Position numbers and translations under genes: made by a program. Of a stretch of DNA of 9,385 nt, positions 3-9,290 are shown one piece after another. The notes under the pieces are model-generated. The model made no database searches. It was not told where the DNA came from and saw only the letters and a program-made list of their open reading frames with translations. The stretch comes from an uncultured Cellvibrio sp. (GTDB lineage Bacteria > Pseudomonadota > Gammaproteobacteria > Pseudomonadales > Cellvibrionaceae), in NCBI GenBank assembly GCA_946886255.1, contig CAMPIG010000165.1, forward strand, positions 1 to 9,385, given 5' to 3'. Every line of letters starts with the position of its first letter. Position 1 is the stretch's first letter.

Positions 3-218
3 GTCGATGTCGGCGGTATCCAGCGGGCGGTCAATCTCAGTTGCATTGCTGAACCGAATACAGACCTCCAGCAATACCTCAACAATTGGGTGCTCGTGCA
101 CGTCGGCTTCGCCATGAGTGTTATCAATGAAGCCGAAGCACAGGCCACGCTCGCAGTGCTCACCGAGTTGGGCAACATGCAGGAAGAGTTGACGGCGATC
201 CAGGAGGGAGAATCCTGA
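3..218 (+). CDS. hypC: HypC/HupF-family hydrogenase maturation chaperone, 3' part only
   Basis: Partial gene; the first visible codon is at position 3 and the stop is TGA 216-218, leaving 71 residues. The segment [19 protein letters not shown] followed by a Leu/Glu-rich end is the typical C-terminal half of HypC (small beta-barrel, then helix). The N-terminal Met-Cys that contacts the Fe ion lies outside the window. HypC binds HypD and carries the Fe(CN)2CO unit to the hydrogenase large-subunit precursor in the cytoplasm. The stop codon overlaps the next start (TGATG), so translation is probably coupled. The family call is firm. A closely related HybG-type paralogue cannot be excluded from this fragment. 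Confidence 0.9.
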
Positions 219-928
219 TGAATCACTCCGACAATAACACCAGCTTGCAGGCACTTTATCCATTCCTCCATAACACGCCGTCCGACAGCGCAGTTTTGAA
301 TCATGCATTGCTGGATTCCATTGACAAGAAAATCGCGGAACACCAACGCGTAGTCGCAGGATTTTTCGGCTCTCATGCGCAAGCCTTAGTGAATTGCGCC
401 CAGGCAATCGCCGATGTTTACAACCGTAAGGGGCAACTTTTCACCATGGGTAACGGCGGCTCCAGTTCCGATGCCGCACACATTGCCGTGGAATTTTTAC
501 ACCCGGTCACAACAGGGCGGCCGGCGCTGCCCGCCTACGATTTAAGTTGCGACAAAACCGTGATGACAGCCATCGCTAACGACGTAGGCTATCAACACGT
601 CTATGCCCGACAGGTCGCAAACCTGGTTAAAGAAAATGATGCACTGATTGCCGTCTCCACCAGTGGTAATTCGGAGAATCTGCTACGGGCACTGAAGCAG
701 GCACAAAAGATCGGTGCAACCACCATTGCGCTGGCTGGCGGTACCGGCGGAGAAATGGCCAAGCTGAAACTGGATCATTGCCTGATTGTTGAATCCAGCA
801 GCATTCATCGCGTGCAGGAATGCCACGTGGCGATCTATCACGTGCTGTGGGATCTGGTGCACACCCTACTGGCTGATACGCGCGGAAAAACAAGTACAAC
901 AAAGGAGACTGGCGATGAAATACGTTGA
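218..928 (+). CDS. gmhA: SIS-domain phosphosugar isomerase, GmhA-like (sedoheptulose-7-phosphate isomerase)
   Basis: A 236-residue cytoplasmic protein with a single SIS domain at about 45-220, preceded by a longer N-terminal arm than in typical GmhA (about 190-200 residues). The phosphate-binding loop GNGGSSSDAAH is at 78-88 and the second loop STSGNSEN is at 147-154. The four residues matching the GmhA zinc ligands are present: H88, E92, Q200 and H208 (spacing Q-x7-H). This suggests an active isomerase converting sedoheptulose 7-phosphate to D-glycero-D-manno-heptose 7-phosphate, or a related sugar-phosphate reaction. The start ATG 218 follows a strong AGGAGGGAG and overlaps the hypC stop by 1 nt. 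The 3' end overlaps hypD by 14 nt. No other heptose-pathway gene is visible, so a hydrogenase-specific role is inferred from position. SIS assignment is very secure; the exact substrate is not. Confidence 0.85.
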   Translation: MNHSDNNTSLQALYPFLHNTPSDSAVLNHALLDSIDKKIAEHQRVVAGFFGSHAQALVNCAQAIADVYNRKGQLFTMGNGGSSSDAAHIAVEFLHPVTTGRPALPAYDLSCDKTVMTAIANDVGYQHVYARQVANLVKENDALIAVSTSGNSENLLRALKQAQKIGATTIALAGGTGGEMAKLKLDHCLIVESSSIHRVQECHVAIYHVLWDLVHTLLADTRGKTSTTKETGDEIR

Positions 929-2072
929 TGAATTTCGCGATCCACAGAAAGCAAAAGTCCTGCTTGGTAATATTATCGATATTGCCAACACACTGGCGGA
1001 CGATCAACAACGACCGACCTACATCATGGAAGTCTGCGGTGGCCATACCCACTCTATCTTTCGCTACGGCATTGAAAATATGTTGCCGCCGAGCATCGAA
1101 TTAATTCACGGCCCCGGCTGCCCGGTATGCGTATTGCCACGAGGTCGCGTTGATGACTGTGTCGCGATTGCTGAGCAAGAGAACGTTATCTTTACAACAT
1201 TTGGTGATGCGATACGTGTGCCCGGCTCGCAAAAAAGTTTATTGGAAGCAAAAGCCGACGGTGCCGATGTGCGCATGGTGTATTCGCCGATGGATGCACT
1301 GAGCATTGCGAAAAAAAATCCGGACAAGGAAGTGGTATTTTTCGGTTTGGGCTTTGAAACCACCATGCCCAGTACAGCACTAACCGTACTCCAGGCCGAA
1401 GCCGATGGCATCACCAACTTTTCGTTGTTCTGTAATCACATCACCATAATTCCTACCATCAAGGCGGTGCTCGATTCGCCGGATTTGCAGCTCGATGGCT
1501 TCCTCGGACCGGGACACGTCAGCATGGTGATCGGTAACCAACCCTACGGTTTTATTGCCGAACAATATCATCGGCCTGTCGTGGTAGCGGGCTTCGAGCC
1601 GCTGGACATTCTGCAATCCCTGTGGATGGTCCTGAAACAATTACAGGCTGGCGAAGCGCGGGTAGAAAATCAGTACAACCGCATCGTACCGGAATACGGC
1701 AACAGAATGGCACTGGAAGCGATCAGCAAGGTGTTTGAGTTGCGACAATTTTTTGAGTGGCGTGGCCTGGGTTCCATCGATCATTCCGGGGTTCAGTTGA
1801 ATAAACAATACAGCGCCTATGATGCAGAGAAAAAATTCTCTACCAAAACTGTCACCATCGCCGATCCGGAATCCTGCCAATGTGGCGAAGTATTGAAAGG
1901 TGCAATCAAGCCTTGGCAATGCAAAGTATTCGGTAAAGCCTGCACGCCGGAAACGCCAGTGGGCGCATTGATGGTCTCCAGTGAAGGCGCCTGTGCGGCC
2001 TATTACCTATACGGCGGCGATCGCATTGATGCGCTGCAAGTGGATGAAGATATTGAGGAACTCAGAGCATGA
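915..2072 (+). CDS. hypD: Hydrogenase maturation protein HypD
   Basis: A 385-residue protein, normal length for HypD (about 370-385). HypD is the iron-sulfur scaffold that works with HypC and HypE to place CN and CO on the iron destined for the NiFe site. Signatures are the EVCGGHTH motif with C41, GPGCPVC with C69 and C72 (the redox-active cysteines), GFETT, and GPGHVSMVIG. The C-terminal cysteines are C321, C323, C336, C343 and C360, in the region that holds the [4Fe-4S] cluster. I chose ATG 915 because AGGAGA at 903-908 sits 6 nt upstream and the protein then begins MKYVDEFRD, a normal HypD N-terminus. The open frame reaches back to 786 but that part lies inside the isomerase gene. It overlaps the upstream gene by 14 nt and hypE by 4 nt (ATGA). 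Nothing suggests loss of function. Confidence 0.97.
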   Translation: MKYVDEFRDPQKAKVLLGNIIDIANTLADDQQRPTYIMEVCGGHTHSIFRYGIENMLPPSIELIHGPGCPVCVLPRGRVDDCVAIAEQENVIFTTFGDAIRVPGSQKSLLEAKADGADVRMVYSPMDALSIAKKNPDKEVVFFGLGFETTMPSTALTVLQAEADGITNFSLFCNHITIIPTIKAVLDSPDLQLDGFLGPGHVSMVIGNQPYGFIAEQYHRPVVVAGFEPLDILQSLWMVLKQLQAGEARVENQYNRIVPEYGNRMALEAISKVFELRQFFEWRGLGSIDHSGVQLNKQYSAYDAEKKFSTKTVTIADPESCQCGEVLKGAIKPWQCKVFGKACTPETPVGALMVSSEGACAAYYLYGGDRIDALQVDEDIEELRA

Positions 2073-3163
2073 ATATCGCAGAAAGAAAATCCGTTGAGGA
2101 AGCCGCACCAACTTCACGCATTCGCCAAGGAAAGTTATTGAGCAATGTCATTACCCTGGCACACGGCGGCGGCGGTAAAGCCATGCGCGACTTAATCGAC
2201 GATGTCTTCATCGACGAGTTCAGCAATCCCGCATTGAACACGCTGGAAGATCAAGCACGATTTTCTCTGGAAGATCTGGCGAGCTACGGTGATCGCCTGG
2301 CAATAACCACCGACTCTTACGTTATTGACCCACTGTTTTTTCCCGGCGGTGACATCGGCAAGCTGGCGATCTGCGGCACCGTCAATGATCTCGCTGTGGG
2401 TGGTGCCACACCCTTGTATTTAACCTGCGCGATGATCATCGAAGAAGGCATGCGAGTGGACACATTGCGCCAGATTGTCAGCTCCATGGCTGCCACCGCC
2501 AGGGCTGCGGGCGTTCATATTGTAACGGGTGATACCAAAGTCGTAGAGCGCGGTAGTTGCGACAAAATTTTTATTAATACCGCCGGTGTCGGTGTGATTC
2601 GCGAAGAATATCACCTGGGCGCGCATCAAGCGCGCCCAGGTGACCATATTCTGGTGAACGGTTTTTTAGGCGATCACGGTGCCGCGATCCTGAATGCCCG
2701 TGGTGATATGCAGCTTTCCTGCCCGATAGAAAGCGATTGTGCACCGCTGCATACCTTAATACAAAGTTTGCTGCATGCGGCTCCCAATACGCGTTTTATT
2801 CGCGATGCCACGCGCGGGGGAATTGCTTCAGTGCTGAACGAAATTGCCGAGACGTCGCGCTGCGCCATTGAAATCCACGAAACGCTTACACCGATTCGCA
2901 CAGAGATCAAAGGCTTCTGCGAAATACTCGGACTTGACCCCTTGTACTTGGCCAACGAAGGCAAACTGGTTGCCGTGGTGCCCGAGGCGGAAACCGCAGC
3001 AGCTTTAGCAGCCATGCAAGCGCACCCGCTCGGGCAAGACGCTGCTGACATAGGCTCGGTACTGGCTACAGGGCGCGCCGGGCGCGTTCATATGCAAACC
3101 AGTTTTGGTGGTAAGCGTATTGTAGACATGCTGGTCGGTGAACAATTGCCACGCATTTGTTAG
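2069..3163 (+). CDS. hypE: Hydrogenase maturation protein HypE (carbamoyl dehydratase)
   Basis: A 364-residue member of the AIR-synthase/PurM-like ATPase family. HypE dehydrates a carbamoyl group (delivered by HypF) on its C-terminal cysteine to thiocyanate in an ATP-dependent step, supplying the CN ligands. Visible signatures are LAHGGGGKAMRDLI near residue 30, the ATP-site segment TGDTKVVERG, the segment RDATRGGIASVLNE, and the essential C-terminus PRIC ending in C364. The start overlaps the hypD stop as ATGA, with GAGGAA at 2055-2060 placed 8 nt upstream. This gives about 25 residues ahead of the usual HypE N-terminus. A TTG near residue 25, after AAGGAAA, is a possible shorter start but is less likely. 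A perfect 14-bp inverted repeat lies inside the gene at 2611-2643. hypA, hypB and hypF are not in the window. Confidence 0.97.
   Translation: MNIAERKSVEEAAPTSRIRQGKLLSNVITLAHGGGGKAMRDLIDDVFIDEFSNPALNTLEDQARFSLEDLASYGDRLAITTDSYVIDPLFFPGGDIGKLAICGTVNDLAVGGATPLYLTCAMIIEEGMRVDTLRQIVSSMAATARAAGVHIVTGDTKVVERGSCDKIFINTAGVGVIREEYHLGAHQARPGDHILVNGFLGDHGAAILNARGDMQLSCPIESDCAPLHTLIQSLLHAAPNTRFIRDATRGGIASVLNEIAETSRCAIEIHETLTPIRTEIKGFCEILGLDPLYLANEGKLVAVVPEAETAAALAAMQAHPLGQDAADIGSVLATGRAGRVHMQTSFGGKRIVDMLVGEQLPRIC
2611..2643 (+). repeat. Perfect 14-bp inverted repeat within hypE
   Basis: The arms TCACCTGGGCGCGC (2611-2624) and GCGCGCCCAGGTGA (2630-2643) are exact reverse complements around a 5-nt loop ATCAA. 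With a short bulge, GAATAT just upstream can also pair with ATATTC just downstream (2646-2651). The element is GC-rich and would form a very stable mRNA hairpin. It is coding (Y-H-L-G-A-H-Q-A-R-P-G-D), so it may be an accident of codon choice. There is no T-run after it, so it is not an ordinary terminator. Confidence 0.75.
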
Positions 3164-3213: not shown

Positions 3214-3825
3214 ATGAACGCTATATCCCCTATTGATCATATTCCTGCAGAAGGATTACTTATCCGTGTTCTTGACCACGGTAAGTTATTGACACTCGAT
3301 TATCAGGAAGCCACCGCACAACACCAGCGTTCGCTCTGGTGGGGAACTGCTGTGGGTTATCGCGCGATGCAGGTTGCTGCCCTGGAGCTATCGGAAAAAC
3401 AATTATGGAGCCGCGATAATCTCGTCGTGGTAAGCGGTCACCCCGGCCCGGGTGTACTCGACTCACTCAATTACGTGACCGGCTGCGCCGACCGTGATTG
3501 TATGACTGTTATGCAAAATGAAAACTGCGTGAACCGTTGCAACAGCGAGATGAAATTTGAGTGGTGGGTGAGCGATGGACAGCAAACCGCACATATCAAA
3601 TTACGCGACGATTTTGTGCCCATCGAGTTTTATCAATTGATTGACCGCCGGGTGTACAACGAAACCCGCGCCGATGACGACAAGCTGTTCGAGCTATTTA
3701 AAGTCAACCTTTCATCCCGCATTTGGGTGGCACCCCTGGAGGAAAGTTTTTCCGTTGAACGTATTGCACCTCTCGCCAAAGGTGAAATACCCGGCAACCA
3801 CGTGTGGAACAAAGCAACGGCTTGA
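3214..3825 (+). CDS. FmdE-like domain protein with a four-cysteine cluster
   Basis: A 203-residue soluble protein without signal peptide or membrane segment. The middle resembles the FmdE/FwdE domain (named after formylmethanofuran dehydrogenase subunit E): WWGTAVGYRAMQVAALEL, then SGHPGPGVLDSLNYVTGC with H76. Four cysteines follow at C91, C96, C105 and C109 (C-x4-C-x8-C-x3-C), suggesting a metal site. The C-terminal zinc ribbon of longer FmdE proteins is absent. Aerobic bacteria with this domain generally lack the methanofuran pathway, so the name should not be read as a function. It follows hypE by 50 nt on the same strand, so it probably belongs to the hydrogenase operon. A role in metal handling or one-carbon chemistry is inference. 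The domain call rests on motif memory, not on an alignment. Confidence 0.65.
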   Translation: MNAISPIDHIPAEGLLIRVLDHGKLLTLDYQEATAQHQRSLWWGTAVGYRAMQVAALELSEKQLWSRDNLVVVSGHPGPGVLDSLNYVTGCADRDCMTVMQNENCVNRCNSEMKFEWWVSDGQQTAHIKLRDDFVPIEFYQLIDRRVYNETRADDDKLFELFKVNLSSRIWVAPLEESFSVERIAPLAKGEIPGNHVWNKATA

Positions 3826-3857
3826 GGTGGATAACAGCCGATCAATGACATTTTCAT

Positions 3858-3863
3858 GGAGAG
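3858..3863 (+). promoter_or_regulatory. Ribosome binding site that fixes the cytochrome-like start
   Basis: GGAGAG ends 7 nt before ATG 3871. The site overlaps the in-frame ATG 3856, which has no Shine-Dalgarno sequence of its own, so 3871 is the better start. It also gives a normal signal peptide directly at the N-terminus. Confidence 0.7.
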
Positions 3864-3870
3864 TAATCCA

Positions 3871-5544
3871 ATGCAACCGCAACCCCTTCTTCTTAAAATC
3901 ACCAGTGCATTGCTGTTAACCTTTACTGCACATATGGCTTTTTCTGCCGCACCGGACAACGGCGGCAGCATCACCAAAGACGATTTAACGAAACCGGTCA
4001 CAGATTTTCCTGCCGATCTGGTGAGTGGCGCTAATCAAACACAATTCGCCAACTACGCCTGGCGGTTATTTATAGCAGCAACGCAACAGACCACAGCCAC
4101 GCTCAGCAGTGGACAAGGTCGCGCCGTGGGCAATGGCAAGAACAATTTTATCGATACTGGAGCATCACCCGGCGTTGATAACCCACTGGTCTTTGAGAGC
4201 TTTTACCATCGCACCGAAGCCTTCCCTTTTTACACCAGCCAAAAACCACCATCCCCAATTCAGCAATTGCCGGTGTATTACACCTTTTACACCGACAACA
4301 ATCACAAGATGGTACCGTTGACGGTTAGTAATCAGAATTATGTTTACCTGGATGAAACCAACCAGATCAGCCAGAACTTCCTGTATTACCAGAATTCTTA
4401 TGCGCCGGAATTCCCGGTATTGTTTATGGCCAAGGTTAATCAGACTGAAGCAACCTATGCGCTCGATCCAGCGCGCAAAGCCCCCAGTTCGTCAATCTCC
4501 TGGGATTTCCCCGATGGGGTCGTGGAAGTGAAGTCAGCGTGGCGCCGCGTAAAAGATATTAAGAATTCAAATCCACAAACCTATCACCAGGCCAGCGCAA
4601 CCTACTATGTGGTTGACGCCAGCGGAGTACCGACGATTCATACAGATACCTTTGCGCTAATCGCTCTGCATATCATCCAGAAGACGGCGAATTACCAGGA
4701 ATTTATTTTTACGACGTTTGAGCACGTGGATGCGGTGACGCGCGATAGTAACAATAAGATTACCGATCCGGCTTACCAAACCACTTACAATAATTTGTCT
4801 TACCAGAAGCCGAGCGATGATCCTCACACGGCTACCGCGACTGGGGCATATTCAATCAATGCACCCGGTCAACCGGCACAACAAAATAAACAAACTACTT
4901 ACGACTTGCCGGATGCCGGAGCCATCTCGCAAGACTATACGACAGTGGTGCAACCCAACACGATCATCAAGGAAGTAAACGATGTGAATAACCAGGTGAA
5001 TACGCTGATTAAAAGTCTGGACCAGGATAATATCTGGGCCAACTATCGTCTCAAGGGCGTTCAGGCCGTTCCCACCAGTGACTCCACCGCAAGCAACTAT
5101 TTTCTCGCCAATATCGTGGTGGAAAGCAGTCAACCGGGCATTCAATTATTCACCGGAATTCTGTTAAACGGCGGCGTACCTGTACAGGGCGTTAAGGATA
5201 AGAGTCAACAATATTTTGTGAATTGCCGTGGTGATATCGGCAGCACCAAATGTATTTATCCTGACCCGGCACTCAACACCTCAACACCACCGACGACTTA
5301 CAACAACGTGTCACTCAATGTGCAGCAAAGCCAACCGGTTCCGGCGGCACAATTCAGCATGGGTGGCTGTCAGGGCTGCCATGGTGCTGCGCAACAACTG
5401 GGACGCGACTTCAGTTTCCTCGCCAACGGTGTTGGCGGTAAAGGCAAAGAACTGGATGCGGTTCCGTCGAGTGGATTACCCGCTGCGCAAAAAGCAGCGG
5501 TTAACCGCAAGATGATTAAAAGCTCAGCGTTTGATCTCCGATAA
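3871..5544 (+). CDS. Exported monoheme c-type cytochrome-like protein
   Basis: A 557-residue protein. The N-terminus is a classic Sec signal peptide: K9, hydrophobic residues to about 24, and a likely cleavage in AFSAAP near residues 23-27. One heme c motif, C500-Q-G-C503-H504, lies near the C-terminus, followed by GRDFSFL. An extra cysteine pair is present at C452 and C461. The body carries blocks I associate with a poorly characterised 'cytochrome c family protein' group: AWRLFIAAT near the N-terminus, EVKSAWRR, FALIALHIIQKT, TFEHVD (about 282-287), and NIWANYRLKGVQ. Expected location is the periplasm or outer face of the inner membrane, with heme attached by the Ccm system. It starts 45 nt after the FmdE-like gene, so co-transcription is likely. 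It may exchange electrons with a hydrogenase, but no direct evidence shows this. A hairpin follows the gene. Confidence 0.75.
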   Translation: MQPQPLLLKITSALLLTFTAHMAFSAAPDNGGSITKDDLTKPVTDFPADLVSGANQTQFANYAWRLFIAATQQTTATLSSGQGRAVGNGKNNFIDTGASPGVDNPLVFESFYHRTEAFPFYTSQKPPSPIQQLPVYYTFYTDNNHKMVPLTVSNQNYVYLDETNQISQNFLYYQNSYAPEFPVLFMAKVNQTEATYALDPARKAPSSSISWDFPDGVVEVKSAWRRVKDIKNSNPQTYHQASATYYVVDASGVPTIHTDTFALIALHIIQKTANYQEFIFTTFEHVDAVTRDSNNKITDPAYQTTYNNLSYQKPSDDPHTATATGAYSINAPGQPAQQNKQTTYDLPDAGAISQDYTTVVQPNTIIKEVNDVNNQVNTLIKSLDQDNIWANYRLKGVQAVPTSDSTASNYFLANIVVESSQPGIQLFTGILLNGGVPVQGVKDKSQQYFVNCRGDIGSTKCIYPDPALNTSTPPTTYNNVSLNVQQSQPVPAAQFSMGGCQGCHGAAQQLGRDFSFLANGVGGKGKELDAVPSSGLPAAQKAAVNRKMIKSSAFDLR

Positions 5545-5650: not shown

Positions 5651-5657
5651 TTTGTTA

Positions 5658-6569
5658 ATGAGAAACCCTGTCATGCATCATTCACCATTTTCAAAAAACA
5701 CTCATGCGCTCGAGGAAGTCAACTCATTGCCTTTGGTGCTGGATCAACCGCGCTACCGGCACTACCCCGGGATGAAGCTCGGTTACCTGCCTGACGTTAC
5801 CTTTTTTGCTCAGCAACTCAGCGCGTTGGCTCTCGCTATATTGCAACAACAAGAAGGCCAAAATTGTGAGTGGGTGTTAACAGCACCCGCGTTTTATCAA
5901 GTACCTGCAGCTGCGAATTTGATCGCTCGACAAGTCCAGGTTCTCCTGCATCAACAAGGTATATTTATGCCCTTGATTGAGCCACGCTTGAGCCCCCAAC
6001 AAATAGAAATTCGCACACGGAAGGATATCAAAAACTACAACAACTACAGCAAAAATAAAGTGCAACAACGCATCGCGGAGAGACAACGGGTTCAACAACA
6101 TATTGACAGCAACAGCTTATTGCCACAGTTCCAGCATAAATCCGTGATCGTTATTAATGACATCAATGTGACGGGAACGCAGCAGCAATTTATGCAAGCT
6201 CGCTTTGAACAACTTCAAGCACGCGAATGTACCTGGTTATATATTTTTACCGTTGATAAAAACCTGGCCCACCGCTATCCCGACATTGAGTATCAAATCA
6301 ACAGCAGCCAATGGCAATCGCTCGATCAATTCGCGGAACTGCTGTGTGATCAAAAAACGTCGCCGACCGCACGCTGCCTTGGCCGCCTGTTTAATGAAAC
6401 CGTCGAAAATTTTTGTTATCTCATCAGTGCGATTGATCAGGATACACGCCAAAAAATTTATGCGCTTGCGCAGTTGGAGGGGCGTTACAACGGCCCCTTT
6501 TTTTCCGACAAGATGCAATTTTTGGCCGCCGATGGCGAACACCTTCACACCTCACAATCTCCAGGATGA
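5658..6569 (+). CDS. Phosphoribosyltransferase-fold protein (divergent PRTase)
   Basis: A 303-residue soluble protein. Its best landmark is the segment VIVINDINVTGTQQQF around residues 164-179. This matches the PRPP-binding loop of type I phosphoribosyltransferases: a hydrophobic strand, two acidic residues, then T-G-T. The first acidic position is N167 and the second is D168, with T172-G173-T174 following. The earlier segment WVLTAPAFYQVPAAANLIARQ fits the N-terminal half of the Rossmann-like core seen in ComF-like PRTases. A long charged, Gln-rich stretch (about 110-150) separates the two. The usual reaction would move a phosphoribosyl group from PRPP to or from a base, but no substrate can be named. 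The start ATG 5658 is chosen for its AGGAAGAG site; the stop lies 5 nt before the next start. Tight packing with the hydrogenase large-subunit gene suggests a shared function. An alternative is a regulatory PRTase without catalysis. Confidence 0.65.
   Translation: MRNPVMHHSPFSKNTHALEEVNSLPLVLDQPRYRHYPGMKLGYLPDVTFFAQQLSALALAILQQQEGQNCEWVLTAPAFYQVPAAANLIARQVQVLLHQQGIFMPLIEPRLSPQQIEIRTRKDIKNYNNYSKNKVQQRIAERQRVQQHIDSNSLLPQFQHKSVIVINDINVTGTQQQFMQARFEQLQARECTWLYIFTVDKNLAHRYPDIEYQINSSQWQSLDQFAELLCDQKTSPTARCLGRLFNETVENFCYLISAIDQDTRQKIYALAQLEGRYNGPFFSDKMQFLAADGEHLHTSQSPG
6563..6566 (+). promoter_or_regulatory. Ribosome binding site favouring the ATG 6575 start
   Basis: AGGA lies 8 nt before ATG 6575, an ideal spacing. 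The alternative in-frame ATG 6566 overlaps this site and has no room for its own. ATG 6566 would overlap the upstream stop as ATGA, so it cannot be dismissed completely. Confidence 0.55.
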
Positions 6570-6574
6570 CGCTT

Positions 6575-7405
6575 ATGTACGACATTGATCACAAGATTCC
6601 TTTGGTAGATCTGCAGCTGATTCGTGCACCCCACTACCAAATTCCCATTGATGAAGCATCACCGCTTTATAACGAACCCTTGGTTAACCTGAAACACTAT
6701 GACCTGCCCTTTTTATCCTGGCACGCTGTCACAGACGGCAGCAATACACCGTATAAAAAGCCGATTCAGGGCGCGCGCCAGGAAGGTTGGCTACGAAAAA
6801 CCATCGCTGAAAAATTGGCACGCGCCAATCAATTACTTCGTCCCTATAACGTCGAGTTGCTGATACTGGATGCCTATCGTCCCATTGAATGTCAGCGCGG
6901 TTTATGGACATTTTTTTACGAACGCGGTCGTCGTGAACTTCCCCACGGCAACGAAGATGTGTGGCGACAGTATGCCCTGGGTTATGTGCGCGATCCACGT
7001 AACTTTATTCCGCATGATGCCCGTACATTTCCGATTCATATCACCGGTGCTTCGATTGATGTCACATTACGACAACGTGACAGCGGACGCTGGATAAATA
7101 TGGGCACACGCTTTGAAGAAATTATTGACGCCAGCACCACGGATTATTTTGAGCAGCAATGGCAACAGGGACTTATTGCCGACGATGATGAACGTTTGTG
7201 GAACCGACGCTTGATGGATTGGGCATTGCGCAGTGAAGGCTTCCTTAATGATCCCATTCTTTATTGGCATTATGACTGGGGCAACCAGATCTGGATAAAA
7301 GTCAAAAACGCCCTCTATAGCGATGCGCCAGAGCAAGCCTGGTATGGCTATATTGCCGCACCGGCCTGGGAAGTTGAAGAAGCACACCTATCAGCTGAAG
7401 CGTGA
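6575..7405 (+). CDS. VanX/DdpX-like M15D family protein lacking the catalytic Glu
   Basis: A 276-residue protein without a signal peptide, so probably cytoplasmic like VanX. Family landmarks are L-D99-A-Y-R102-P103 (the DAYRP motif with the substrate-site Arg), H155-I-T-G-A-S-I-D162 (two zinc ligands of the S-x-H-x(6)-D type motif) and Y230-W-H232-Y-D-W-G-N-Q-I-W (third zinc ligand). In active D-Ala-D-Ala dipeptidases the last motif reads E-W-W-H, with Glu as the catalytic base; here that position is L229. The Ser before the first His is also replaced (P-I-H). The metal site is therefore kept but peptide hydrolysis is doubtful. The start is ATG 6575 (AGGA at 6563-6566); ATG 6566 would add three residues. 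It ends 19 nt before the large-subunit gene and likely shares its mRNA. Its job in a hydrogenase operon is unknown: a repurposed metal- or peptide-binding protein is possible. Confidence 0.75.
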   Translation: MYDIDHKIPLVDLQLIRAPHYQIPIDEASPLYNEPLVNLKHYDLPFLSWHAVTDGSNTPYKKPIQGARQEGWLRKTIAEKLARANQLLRPYNVELLILDAYRPIECQRGLWTFFYERGRRELPHGNEDVWRQYALGYVRDPRNFIPHDARTFPIHITGASIDVTLRQRDSGRWINMGTRFEEIIDASTTDYFEQQWQQGLIADDDERLWNRRLMDWALRSEGFLNDPILYWHYDWGNQIWIKVKNALYSDAPEQAWYGYIAAPAWEVEEAHLSAEA

Positions 7406-7416
7406 AACTGCACCAC

Positions 7417-7421
7417 GAGGA
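7417..7421 (+). promoter_or_regulatory. Ribosome binding site before the large-subunit gene
   Basis: GAGGA is only 3 nt from ATG 7425, a short spacing. A second candidate, GGAG at 7427-7430, lies 6 nt from ATG 7437. The true start is therefore one of two positions four codons apart. Confidence 0.5.
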
Positions 7422-7424
7422 AAC

Positions 7425-9290
7425 ATGGAGCACACAATGGAATTGCAATTAGCCGAATTGATCAACACAGTTAAAGTAACTCAGCGCGACGCCCATACAC
7501 CGCGACTGAGCCCCGCCATGCAAGAACTGGTCAAACAGCAGAATGCCATCACTCAGGCATCCGACCCCATGAGCAAACTGGAAGGCGGGCTGGCGGTGAA
7601 TTGCCGCGTCGACTTGAATGATAAAAGCATCATCGAAGCAGCATCCATGGCAACCGCATTTCGCGGCTATGAATCGCTATTACCGGGACGGGATCTTCGC
7701 CAGGTGGGGCTGGTCAGCGCTACCGCCTCTGGTATTTGCGGCGGTGTACACGCAACAGCTTCCGCGCTGTGTCTTGAAATGGCTCTCGGCATAAAACCGC
7801 CGCCCTTTGGTATTGTGCTACGAAATTTGCTGCTCAGTTGTCAGTACCTGAGTGACAACTGTATGCATTTATTTGTCCTCGCCGGTCCGGATTATTCTCA
7901 AGCCACCATTGAAAAAACCAACCCGGAAATCTGGAGCAAGGCACAACAAAGCAAGAGTCAGTTTGCGCATCTGCATGGCTATTCGCGCATCAGCGACATC
8001 ATGATTGAGTTGAATAAAGGGACAGGCGCGTTGTATCGCGAAGCCTTGCAGATGGTATCGCTTGCACGCCAGGCCTATATTTTACTGGGTGGTAAATACC
8101 CGCATTCAGAATCCATCATCCCCGGCGGGGTCAGCATTACGACCGATGCGCACAAGCTGACGCAGTTCAGTATATTGCTGCAACCCTTTATGAAATACAG
8201 CCAAAAAGTTACCGTTATTTGGGACGATATTTTTGATTTTATGTTGTCGGCCAATCCGCGTTATGAAGATCTGGGACGCAGCGACGCCTCGTTGTTGGAC
8301 TTCGGTCAGTGGGATCATCCGGATCATTATGATGGTCGCTATCAGACCTGCGACATCTGGGGCCGAAATCGCTGGTCTACACCCGCCGCCATTATCGACG
8401 GCAAGCTGGCTTGCATCTCACTTAGCCAATTAAATGCCGGTATGGAAGAATGCCTGGATTATTCTTTCCAATCGCGCATTGATATTCCCGCCGCCGAGGT
8501 CATTAAAAAGGATCCACTGGGCAACACCATCAGCCAGCTCCATCCCTGGAATAAAAAAACGTACACAATTAAAAATACAAACCCGAACGCTTACAGCTGG
8601 GGATCAAGCCTCACCTGGCGCGGACATAATTTCGAAGTCGGTGCCTACGCCCGCCTCTATCTCACCGCCGCTGCACAAAAAATTCCCAAGAGCCCCTACC
8701 TTCACGCCACAGGCTCCAGCATGCATTTCCTACTCAGCGCAGCGAATGAAAAAACTGCCGAACTGGAATGGCATATACCGGACGTATGGAATACGTTTGC
8801 ACGCAATCGCGCACGCGCTTACGCACTTGCGTTTAATCTGGCCGTAACCCGGGAAAATATTGACAACGCCTACCGTTTGCTCGCCGTGGGCGAAACAAAA
8901 ACCCATGCCGCATTAAACGATGCAAACACAAATGAAGGCCAAACAAAACAACTCGGCGTGGGATTATGGGGTGCCAGCCGCGGATTCCTCGCGCATTGGG
9001 CAGTCCTTAATAATCAATGTATCGAGAATTACCAGATCGCTATTCCCTCACGCATCAACGCCGGCACCACCACACCCACCCGCACGCCGGGACCAATGGA
9101 AAAAGCATTGCTGAATACTCCGATATTAGAAACTGGTTTTCACAATGCAGAAGACTTCGCCGCTATTGATATTCAACGCACGATTCAAAGCTTTGATCCC
9201 TGCATGAATTGCACGGCCCATGTGCTGGTGAATGGTAGTGAGCAGGTGTTGAGTAAGGTGATTGATACGAGTTTTGTGCCGGTTAAATAA
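7425..9290 (+). CDS. [NiFe]-hydrogenase large-subunit homologue (group 1h-like) with an altered L1 nickel motif
   Basis: A 621-residue protein; ATG 7437 is an alternative start four codons in. It follows the large-subunit pattern throughout: R80-G-Y-E83 (RGxE), LPGRD, HLFVLAGPDYS, PHSESIIPGGV, ATGSSMHFLL, ELEWHIPDVW, NRARAYALAFNLAV, SRG around R519 and D591-P-C593-M-N-C596-T-A-H599. The overall pattern resembles the high-affinity, oxygen-tolerant group 1h (formerly group 5) enzymes. Canonical L1 is R-x-C-G-[IV]-C; here it is T100-A-S102-G-I-C105, so the first Ni-ligand cysteine is serine (codon TCT 7728-7730). Other changes: Q588 where H or R is usual before DPC, G516 where Glu is usual in E-A-x-R-G, and R543-I544 after PS541-542 where T-W is common. 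A 22-residue tail follows H599, as expected of a precursor cut by a maturation protease. No small-subunit gene adjoins it. It could be an active variant, a repurposed paralogue or a decaying copy. Confidence 0.88.
   Translation: MEHTMELQLAELINTVKVTQRDAHTPRLSPAMQELVKQQNAITQASDPMSKLEGGLAVNCRVDLNDKSIIEAASMATAFRGYESLLPGRDLRQVGLVSATASGICGGVHATASALCLEMALGIKPPPFGIVLRNLLLSCQYLSDNCMHLFVLAGPDYSQATIEKTNPEIWSKAQQSKSQFAHLHGYSRISDIMIELNKGTGALYREALQMVSLARQAYILLGGKYPHSESIIPGGVSITTDAHKLTQFSILLQPFMKYSQKVTVIWDDIFDFMLSANPRYEDLGRSDASLLDFGQWDHPDHYDGRYQTCDIWGRNRWSTPAAIIDGKLACISLSQLNAGMEECLDYSFQSRIDIPAAEVIKKDPLGNTISQLHPWNKKTYTIKNTNPNAYSWGSSLTWRGHNFEVGAYARLYLTAAAQKIPKSPYLHATGSSMHFLLSAANEKTAELEWHIPDVWNTFARNRARAYALAFNLAVTRENIDNAYRLLAVGETKTHAALNDANTNEGQTKQLGVGLWGASRGFLAHWAVLNNQCIENYQIAIPSRINAGTTTPTRTPGPMEKALLNTPILETGFHNAEDFAAIDIQRTIQSFDPCMNCTAHVLVNGSEQVLSKVIDTSFVPVK

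Follow-up and report, generated by a model that had tools for sequence, protein, structure and literature searches.

A family of [NiFe]-hydrogenase large-subunit relatives with serine at the first nickel-ligand position accompanies Fe(CN)2CO-assembly genes and may do without nickel

During the maturation of [NiFe]-hydrogenases, HypC, HypD, HypE and HypF provide the Fe(CN)2CO unit first, HypA and HypB load nickel next, and the tail of the large subunit is cut last (excerpts of PMC12134894 and PMC11565642). As described in excerpts of the second paper, the large subunit of the Cupriavidus necator membrane-bound hydrogenase carries Fe(CN)2CO without nickel before small-subunit assembly, and this nickel-free intermediate holds a five-coordinate Fe(CN)2CO, presumably via two cysteines (PMC11565642). 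Here we describe a gene on a contig of an uncultured Cellvibrio sp. (CAMPIG010000165.1; the whole stretch analysed, 9,385 nucleotides, is called the window below). Its product is a homologue of the hydrogenase large subunit in which serine replaces the first cysteine of the L1 motif, a nickel ligand, and it belongs to a family, here called Ser-type, whose genomes mostly encode HypD and mostly yield neither HypA nor HypB. Sequences and gene neighbourhoods point, with a probability of about two in three, to a nickel-free large-subunit relative that would hold Fe(CN)2CO, be fed by a dedicated HypC-HypD-HypE-HypF set and stop there. To our knowledge, living cells are not known to use the Fe(CN)2CO unit other than in the [NiFe]-hydrogenase site, where it forms one half, and on the proteins that make it. 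We found no description of the Ser-type family among the titles and opening lines of abstracts listed by searches of a mainly open-access literature.

The initial annotation, made from the DNA letters, had called the product a hydrogenase large-subunit homologue with Ser and Thr in place of the first L1 Cys and the L1 Arg and with an intact L2 motif, and this description held. The protein matches PF00374, its predicted model has the large-subunit fold, and group 1h is nearest among solved structures. The gene and its motifs are as follows.

7437..9290, + strand: Ser-type large-subunit homologue, 617 amino acids, PF00374 match (longest open reading frame 7323-9290)
7722..7739, + strand: altered L1 motif T-A-S-G-I-C, canonically R-x-C-G-[IV]-C; Ser codon 7728-7730, kept Cys 7737-7739
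8979..8981, + strand: invariant Arg, aligned with D. fructosovorans R476 (counted by hand on the alignment)
9048..9053, + strand: Ser-Arg after Pro, the Ser aligned with D. fructosovorans S499 (counted by hand on the alignment)
9195..9212, + strand: DPCMNC, the L2 motif, intact; its first Cys is invariant and the second is replaced in part of the family
9213..9287, + strand: C-terminal tail, 25 residues past L2, predicted strand pair

The likely start, ATG 7437, gives the 617 amino acids that are also the length of the two closest relatives among the matches listed. In the large-subunit frame, 7722-7739 reads ACC GCC TCT GGT ATT TGC, with TCT as the Ser codon, and T-A-S-G-I-C stands opposite R-I-C-G-I-C of the Ralstonia eutropha actinobacterial-type large subunit (5aa5) in a gapless alignment. 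The protein has the fold of a [NiFe]-hydrogenase large subunit, and with Ser at the first L1 position it lacks the set of four nickel-ligand cysteines.

Residues were counted in the query and the best 120 of 1169 matches (7997 candidates scored); because only these best 120 were listed, the proportion of Ser to Cys is skewed in favour of query-like sequences. At the first L1 position, 106 of the 121 sequences had Ser, 4 had Ala and 11 had Cys, giving 110 Ser/Ala-types and 11 Cys-types for the per-residue comparison. The second L1 Cys and the first L2 Cys were present in 121/121. At the second L2 position, 104 sequences had Cys and the others Thr (10), Ser (6) or Ala (1); this Cys was gone in 17/110 Ser/Ala-types, and three site cysteines were left in 93/110. 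Sublineages with Thr, Ser or Ala there were seen in P0052, P0071, P0089, P0090, P0097, P0112 and locus L010. A search of genomes for the Ser motif, suggested along with the initial annotation, used two short peptide patterns taken from a 14-sequence Ser/Ala-type alignment and returned 22 loci, 21 of them with the motif; the remaining locus, L019, reads RACGVC. A sequencing error behind the Ser was ruled out, since the motif is lineage-wide. Family members are annotated at source as 'nickel-dependent hydrogenase large subunit', 'hydrogenase large subunit' or 'cytochrome C'. Plasmid matches to the large subunit came from 123 records, all below 60% identity (about 33% for the top of the 15 listed); pHG1, one of these 15, is Cys-type.

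In a tree of 48 hand-chosen rows (24 of the 120 proteins, 23 loci and the window; L1/L2 columns kept; quick search with long-branch warnings), all 37 Ser/Ala rows formed one clade with an SH-aLRT (Shimodaira-Hasegawa-like approximate likelihood ratio test) value of 100, and the Cys-type rows fell outside. As to a possible place within group 1h, and with those warnings, the clade sits beside rows L023-L025, the L019 and P0088 rows lying between. The state of the first L1 position changed at least five times on this tree, Ser-Ala changes counted, and the second L2 Cys was lost in at least four changes. From the clade and these counts, the L1 Cys was probably lost once, after which another ligand started to erode. 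A second, partial large-subunit copy (351 amino acids, frame from about 4055 of L065, C-terminal PF00374 match only) was seen in Dyella subtropica (G022).

Other residues around the metal site changed together with the L1 Cys. The L1 arginine is Arg in 11/11 Cys-types and in 0/110 Ser/Ala-types, and the residue after P-S is Thr in 11/11 Cys-types and Arg in 110/110 Ser/Ala-types; this new Arg (codon 9051-9053) adjoins the cyanide pocket. The Arg and Ser aligned with D. fructosovorans R476 and S499, which we take to hold the cyanides, are invariant in 121/121. The cleavage-site His after L2 is found in 85/110 Ser/Ala-types, compared with 11/11 Cys-types. This pattern of kept and changed residues would fit a site whose Fe(CN)2CO half was kept and whose nickel half was given up.

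The possibility of a compensating cysteine nearby was borne out in one respect only. A lineage-specific Cys does exist at residue 94 of P0001, in 109/110 Ser/Ala-types with Ser or Thr there in 11/11 Cys-types; it stands 42 residues upstream in sequence of the lost L1 Cys, and we rejected it as a substitute since in E. coli Hyd-1, too, a Cys aligns with position 94, in a chain that keeps its own R-x-C-G-V-C and DPC-x-x-C. C173 and C343 were rejected as well, being common to 11/11 Cys-types, though absent from L019.

We then looked at maturation genes and the small subunit; this census covers relatives' genomes, the window's own genome lying outside it, and completeness or contamination figures are given for none of them. 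HypD was found in 18/21 Ser-type genomes. HypA and HypB exceeded the cut-off in 2/21 each, the same two, G004 and G010. In G010 the pair shares a contig with a second PF00374 gene; G002 yielded pieces of another hydrogenase and, where a contig ends, a HypA fragment below the cut-off; a second strong PF00374 match occurs in G002, G010 and G022 only. The HypB profile gave no match at all in four Dyella genomes (G007, G008, G009 and G022), and the sub-cut-off matches of about 71-85 bits in 6/21 genomes look UreG-like in our reading. On the other hand, the cassette HypC, HypD, HypE and HypF looks able to work, as judged from its conserved residues: the HypD conserved cysteines and the HypE C-terminal PRIC are kept in 17/17 (16 loci and the window), and HypC Cys2 in 17/17 loci whose 5' end is present. 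The window itself carries a partial hypC, hypD and hypE, and hypF precedes hypC in relatives.

As for a partner with FeS (iron-sulphur) clusters, none of the 21 Ser-type genomes matched the small-subunit C-domain PF14720 over the cut-off (G011 gave a single match, of 24 bits), and nothing matching the L019 small subunit was found in the 21 Ser-type loci. PF01058, common to small subunits and NuoB, matched in 21/22 genomes; the type of these matches is left unassigned, their frames in Ser-type genomes span 59-261 amino acids compared with 439 for the L019 small subunit, and one of the two in G010 shares a contig with the second hydrogenase of that genome. A search for a HycI-type protease was negative in 21/21 Ser-type genomes. 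The loci themselves likewise showed neither small subunit nor protease (0/21 each), several of them ending at a contig edge.

The seven isolate genomes among these (three Undibacterium, four Dyella) gave the same picture, with HypD in 7/7, HypA in 0/7 and HypB over the cut-off in 0/7. Controls came from 245 genomes of the family of U. pigrum, where 21 had HypD; four of these are Ser-type and the other 17 served for comparison. HypA was present in 14/17 and HypB in 15/17 controls (both missing in G090 and G168, HypA only in G108). The query matches 15/17 controls, G090 and G168 giving no large-subunit match, and the first L1 cysteine was present in every control motif read, part of the controls having been read. 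For HypA, Fisher tests gave p 7e-6 (2/21 Ser-type against 14/17 controls) and, with isolates only (0/7 against 14/17), p 3e-4, kinship being ignored in both. An altered metal site, as proposed in the initial annotation, is likely. Between a different metal and an absence of nickel, we lean towards a site that lacks nickel and retains Fe(CN)2CO.

Several observations weigh against this reading. HypD was not found in G003, G010 and G013, all Ser-type metagenome-assembled genomes (MAGs). The HypA/HypB pair of G004 is on a 3.5 kb contig, and no second hydrogenase was seen in that genome. The Cys-type MAG G019 also gave no HypA or HypB over the cut-off, and absence from MAGs is therefore weak evidence by itself. 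The Ser-type genomes are related to each other and the counts carry no phylogenetic correction. Finally, known enzymes use the second Cys of L2 as a bridging ligand to Fe; where it is lost, Fe would need other ligands.

The neighbouring genes of the window all lie on the same strand as the large subunit.

3..218, + strand: hypC, 5' end beyond the window; clusters with the HypC of L006
218..928, + strand: SIS-domain (GmhA-like) protein, PF13580 3.9e-20; matched in position by a SIS gene of C. necator pHG1
915..2072, + strand: hypD, TIGR00075 513 bits, conserved cysteines intact, start ATG 915
2069..3163, + strand: hypE, TIGR02124 453 bits, C-terminal PRIC intact
3214..3825, + strand: protein of predicted FmdE fold, right after hypE (fold search; Pfam FmdE E 0.076)
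3856..5544, + strand: protein with one CxxCH c-haem motif and, by eye, a signal-peptide-like N-terminus; no Pfam match
5652..6569, + strand: PRTase_3-like phosphoribosyltransferase, PF15610 2.6e-11
6566..7405, + strand: M15 (VanX-like) peptidase homologue, PF01427 5.2e-14

Nine beta- and gammaproteobacterial Ser-type loci (L002, L004-L009, L020, L022) have, on one strand, hypF-hypC-SIS-hypD-hypE-FmdE-like-PRTase_3-M15-large subunit, some single genes not being drawn in the maps. The window has the same order from hypC to the large subunit, plus the c-haem gene behind the FmdE-like gene; L001, L003, L010, L016, L017 and the alphaproteobacterial loci are arranged differently. The group 1h operon on pHG1 of C. 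necator H16 runs from a nickel transporter (opposite strand) through small subunit, RICGIC large subunit, NifU, DUF5947 and DUF6084, and continues with a hypothetical protein, protease, hypF, hypC, SIS, hypD, hypE, hypA and hypB. Its small-subunit gene (L066:14878-15933) is annotated 'hydrogenase expression protein HypE'; the product shares 52% identity with the small subunit of L019. The order hypF-hypC-SIS-hypD-hypE is thus common to both arrangements, whereas in the Ser-type cassette the place of hypA-hypB is taken by the FmdE-fold gene, which adjoins hypE in 14 loci and the window. Of 21 Ser-type loci, 17 have the FmdE-like gene, 17 PRTase_3, 17 M15, 18 HypF, 16 SIS, 15 a homologue of either c-haem cluster and 7 YcaO. 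The control group 1h clusters L053 and L057 have SIS and HypF, and FmdE-like, PRTase_3 and M15 are all absent from them.

The model of the 3214-3825 product (predicted local distance difference test score, pLDDT, 88.4) found 2gvi (2.8e-6) and 2glz (7.7e-6) with Foldseek, while its score against Pfam PF02663 was 13.5 bits, below the cut-off of 22.9. A profile search of PDB sequences gave nothing convincing (best E 0.32); the fold search alone found FmdE. In the 245 genomes the FmdE-like protein occurs in four, exactly the Ser-type ones, and its C105, C109, H37 and H76 are invariant in 40 aligned sequences. The M15 homologue keeps HxxxxxxD and WH, and the Glu three residues before the last His is missing in 15/15 aligned sequences including the window; we take this Glu of the ExxH motif to be catalytic in M15 peptidases, and the window homologue is probably not an ordinary dipeptidase. 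The seven YcaO loci comprise six titled as alphaproteobacterial (L011, L012, L013, L015, L018, L021) and L014, titled only 'bacterium', which pairs with L011 in the tree. The L014 YcaO lies at 12109-13284 (PF02624 6e-48), and YcaO stands downstream of the large subunit in L011, L013, L015 and L018. YcaO neighbours hint at peptide modification.

Some neighbours carry repeated K-[STADE]-A-F motifs (L001:5059-5673, L001:6390-7262, L003:4990-6585, L017:14338-15963), one with KKSAFA five times; some of these proteins are YCF48-like. Glycosyltransferase genes and genes with a weak likeness to ATP-grasp (E 0.018) lie close by, and the repeats are possible modification sites. Look-alikes of multicopper oxidases were noticed by eye at L001:3282-5003, L003:2796-4433, L011:11684-13345 and L017:15994-17826. 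An excerpt of PMC7794033 describes a cluster with hypE and hypF homologues beside an ATP-grasp gene. Altogether, the phosphoribosyltransferase, the M15 homologue without the usual Glu, the glycosyltransferases (three Ser-type loci) and YcaO (seven) suggest a biosynthetic setting for the cassette.

The place of the FmdE-fold gene also bears on an alternative in which the FmdE-fold protein would supply another metal (Fe, Zn, Cu or Mn) to the former nickel place beside Fe(CN)2CO. The position by hypE, where pHG1 has hypA-hypB, the presence in 17/21 loci and in exactly the four Ser-type genomes of 245, the invariant C105, C109, H37 and H76, and the three cysteines remaining in 93/110 all speak for it. 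One ligand is gone in every Ser/Ala-type, however, and a second in 17/110, and the invariant new Arg beside the cyanide pocket could fill the empty place instead; we hold this alternative to be unlikely, though worth keeping in view. A protein with no metal at all, in which only the fold serves as scaffold or binding surface and the hyp genes serve something else, has a parallel in NuoD of complex I, and the erosion of ligands in sublineages would agree with it, as would the neighbouring M15 homologue that also seems to lack its catalytic Glu. Against it, intact HypC, HypD, HypE and HypF travel along, a second strong PF00374 match exists in three genomes only, and 110/110 sequences keep two cysteines as well as the Arg and Ser of the cyanide pocket, which makes it improbable.

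The initial annotation had also considered a nickel site in which Ser provides an oxygen ligand; the protein would then be a true [NiFe] enzyme loaded independently of HypA and HypB. Ser is indeed the commonest residue (106/110), three cysteines are usually left, and the sub-cut-off HypB matches might be read in its favour. This proposal nevertheless fared badly: Ala stands at the position in 4/110, the second L2 Cys is lost in 17/110, HypA and HypB were each not found over the cut-off in 19/21 genomes although 18/21 have HypD, four Dyella genomes gave no HypB-profile match, and the 21 genomes yielded neither protease nor small-subunit C-domain over the cut-off. It is the least probable of the alternatives and, in our view, very doubtful.

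We prefer the nickel-free Fe(CN)2CO protein. HypC would load Fe(CN)2CO onto the Ser-type protein, which would stay in that state, a natural and permanent version of the nickel-free maturation intermediate. Its ligands in the protein would be the two invariant cysteines, the second of L1 and the first of L2, in most members together with the second L2 Cys; there would be no nickel, no small subunit and an uncut tail. With no small subunit or protease found and nickel loading mostly missing, an ordinary H2 enzyme is unlikely. We infer a role outside H2 turnover, with the protein serving another process together with the FmdE-fold protein, the phosphoribosyltransferase, the M15-like protein, the c-haem protein and, in some loci, YcaO. 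The Fe(CN)2CO protein might itself act in redox chemistry or bind ligands; alternatively, another metal from the FmdE-fold protein might complete a new bimetallic site. Either is plausible. The chances seem evenly balanced for a broader claim, namely a new organometallic class in which this fold carries Fe(CN)2CO alone, or paired with a non-nickel metal from an FmdE-fold chaperone displacing HypA/HypB, and acts outside H2 metabolism, in a pathway that is metabolic or modifies peptides.

The Ser-type protein varies a known fold in a new way, and its metal site would be of a new kind if it is as proposed. Evolution would then have found another use for Fe(CN)2CO, outside hydrogenase, and a naturally stable nickel-free state would be at hand for studying how the unit is transferred and held; isolates carrying Ser-type genes exist in Undibacterium and Dyella. 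Since Ser-type genes are annotated as hydrogenase, genome-based claims of H2 use in their carriers may be wrong.

Compared with known systems, the likeness of the 3214-3825 product to the FmdE family (2gvi, 2glz) is one of predicted fold, its sequence scoring below the Pfam cut-off. NuoD of complex I and the Ehr-type homologues have lost the nickel cysteines in the same fold; they belong to membrane complexes that include a small-subunit homologue, and they have no Hyp set. The mapped clusters of the 22 loci and the window show no such membrane set with a small-subunit homologue and pump subunits. The Cys-type sisters (P0088 group and L019) are about 44-51% identical and share the GGVHAT/GGVHST context and a similar tail length, but have RACGVC and all four cysteines; in L019, unlike the Ser-type loci, a small subunit and a HycI-type protease adjoin the large subunit. 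The group 1h (actinobacterial-type) hydrogenase of C. necator H16 (HofG, 5aa5) has RICGIC, an adjacent small subunit, a protease, hypA-hypB and a nickel transporter, whereas the Ser-type loci have no small subunit or protease, mostly lack hypAB, and gain the FmdE-like, PRTase_3, M15 and c-haem genes. The nickel-free intermediate of C. necator is a passing state of a four-Cys protein; in the Ser-type proteins that state would be permanent.
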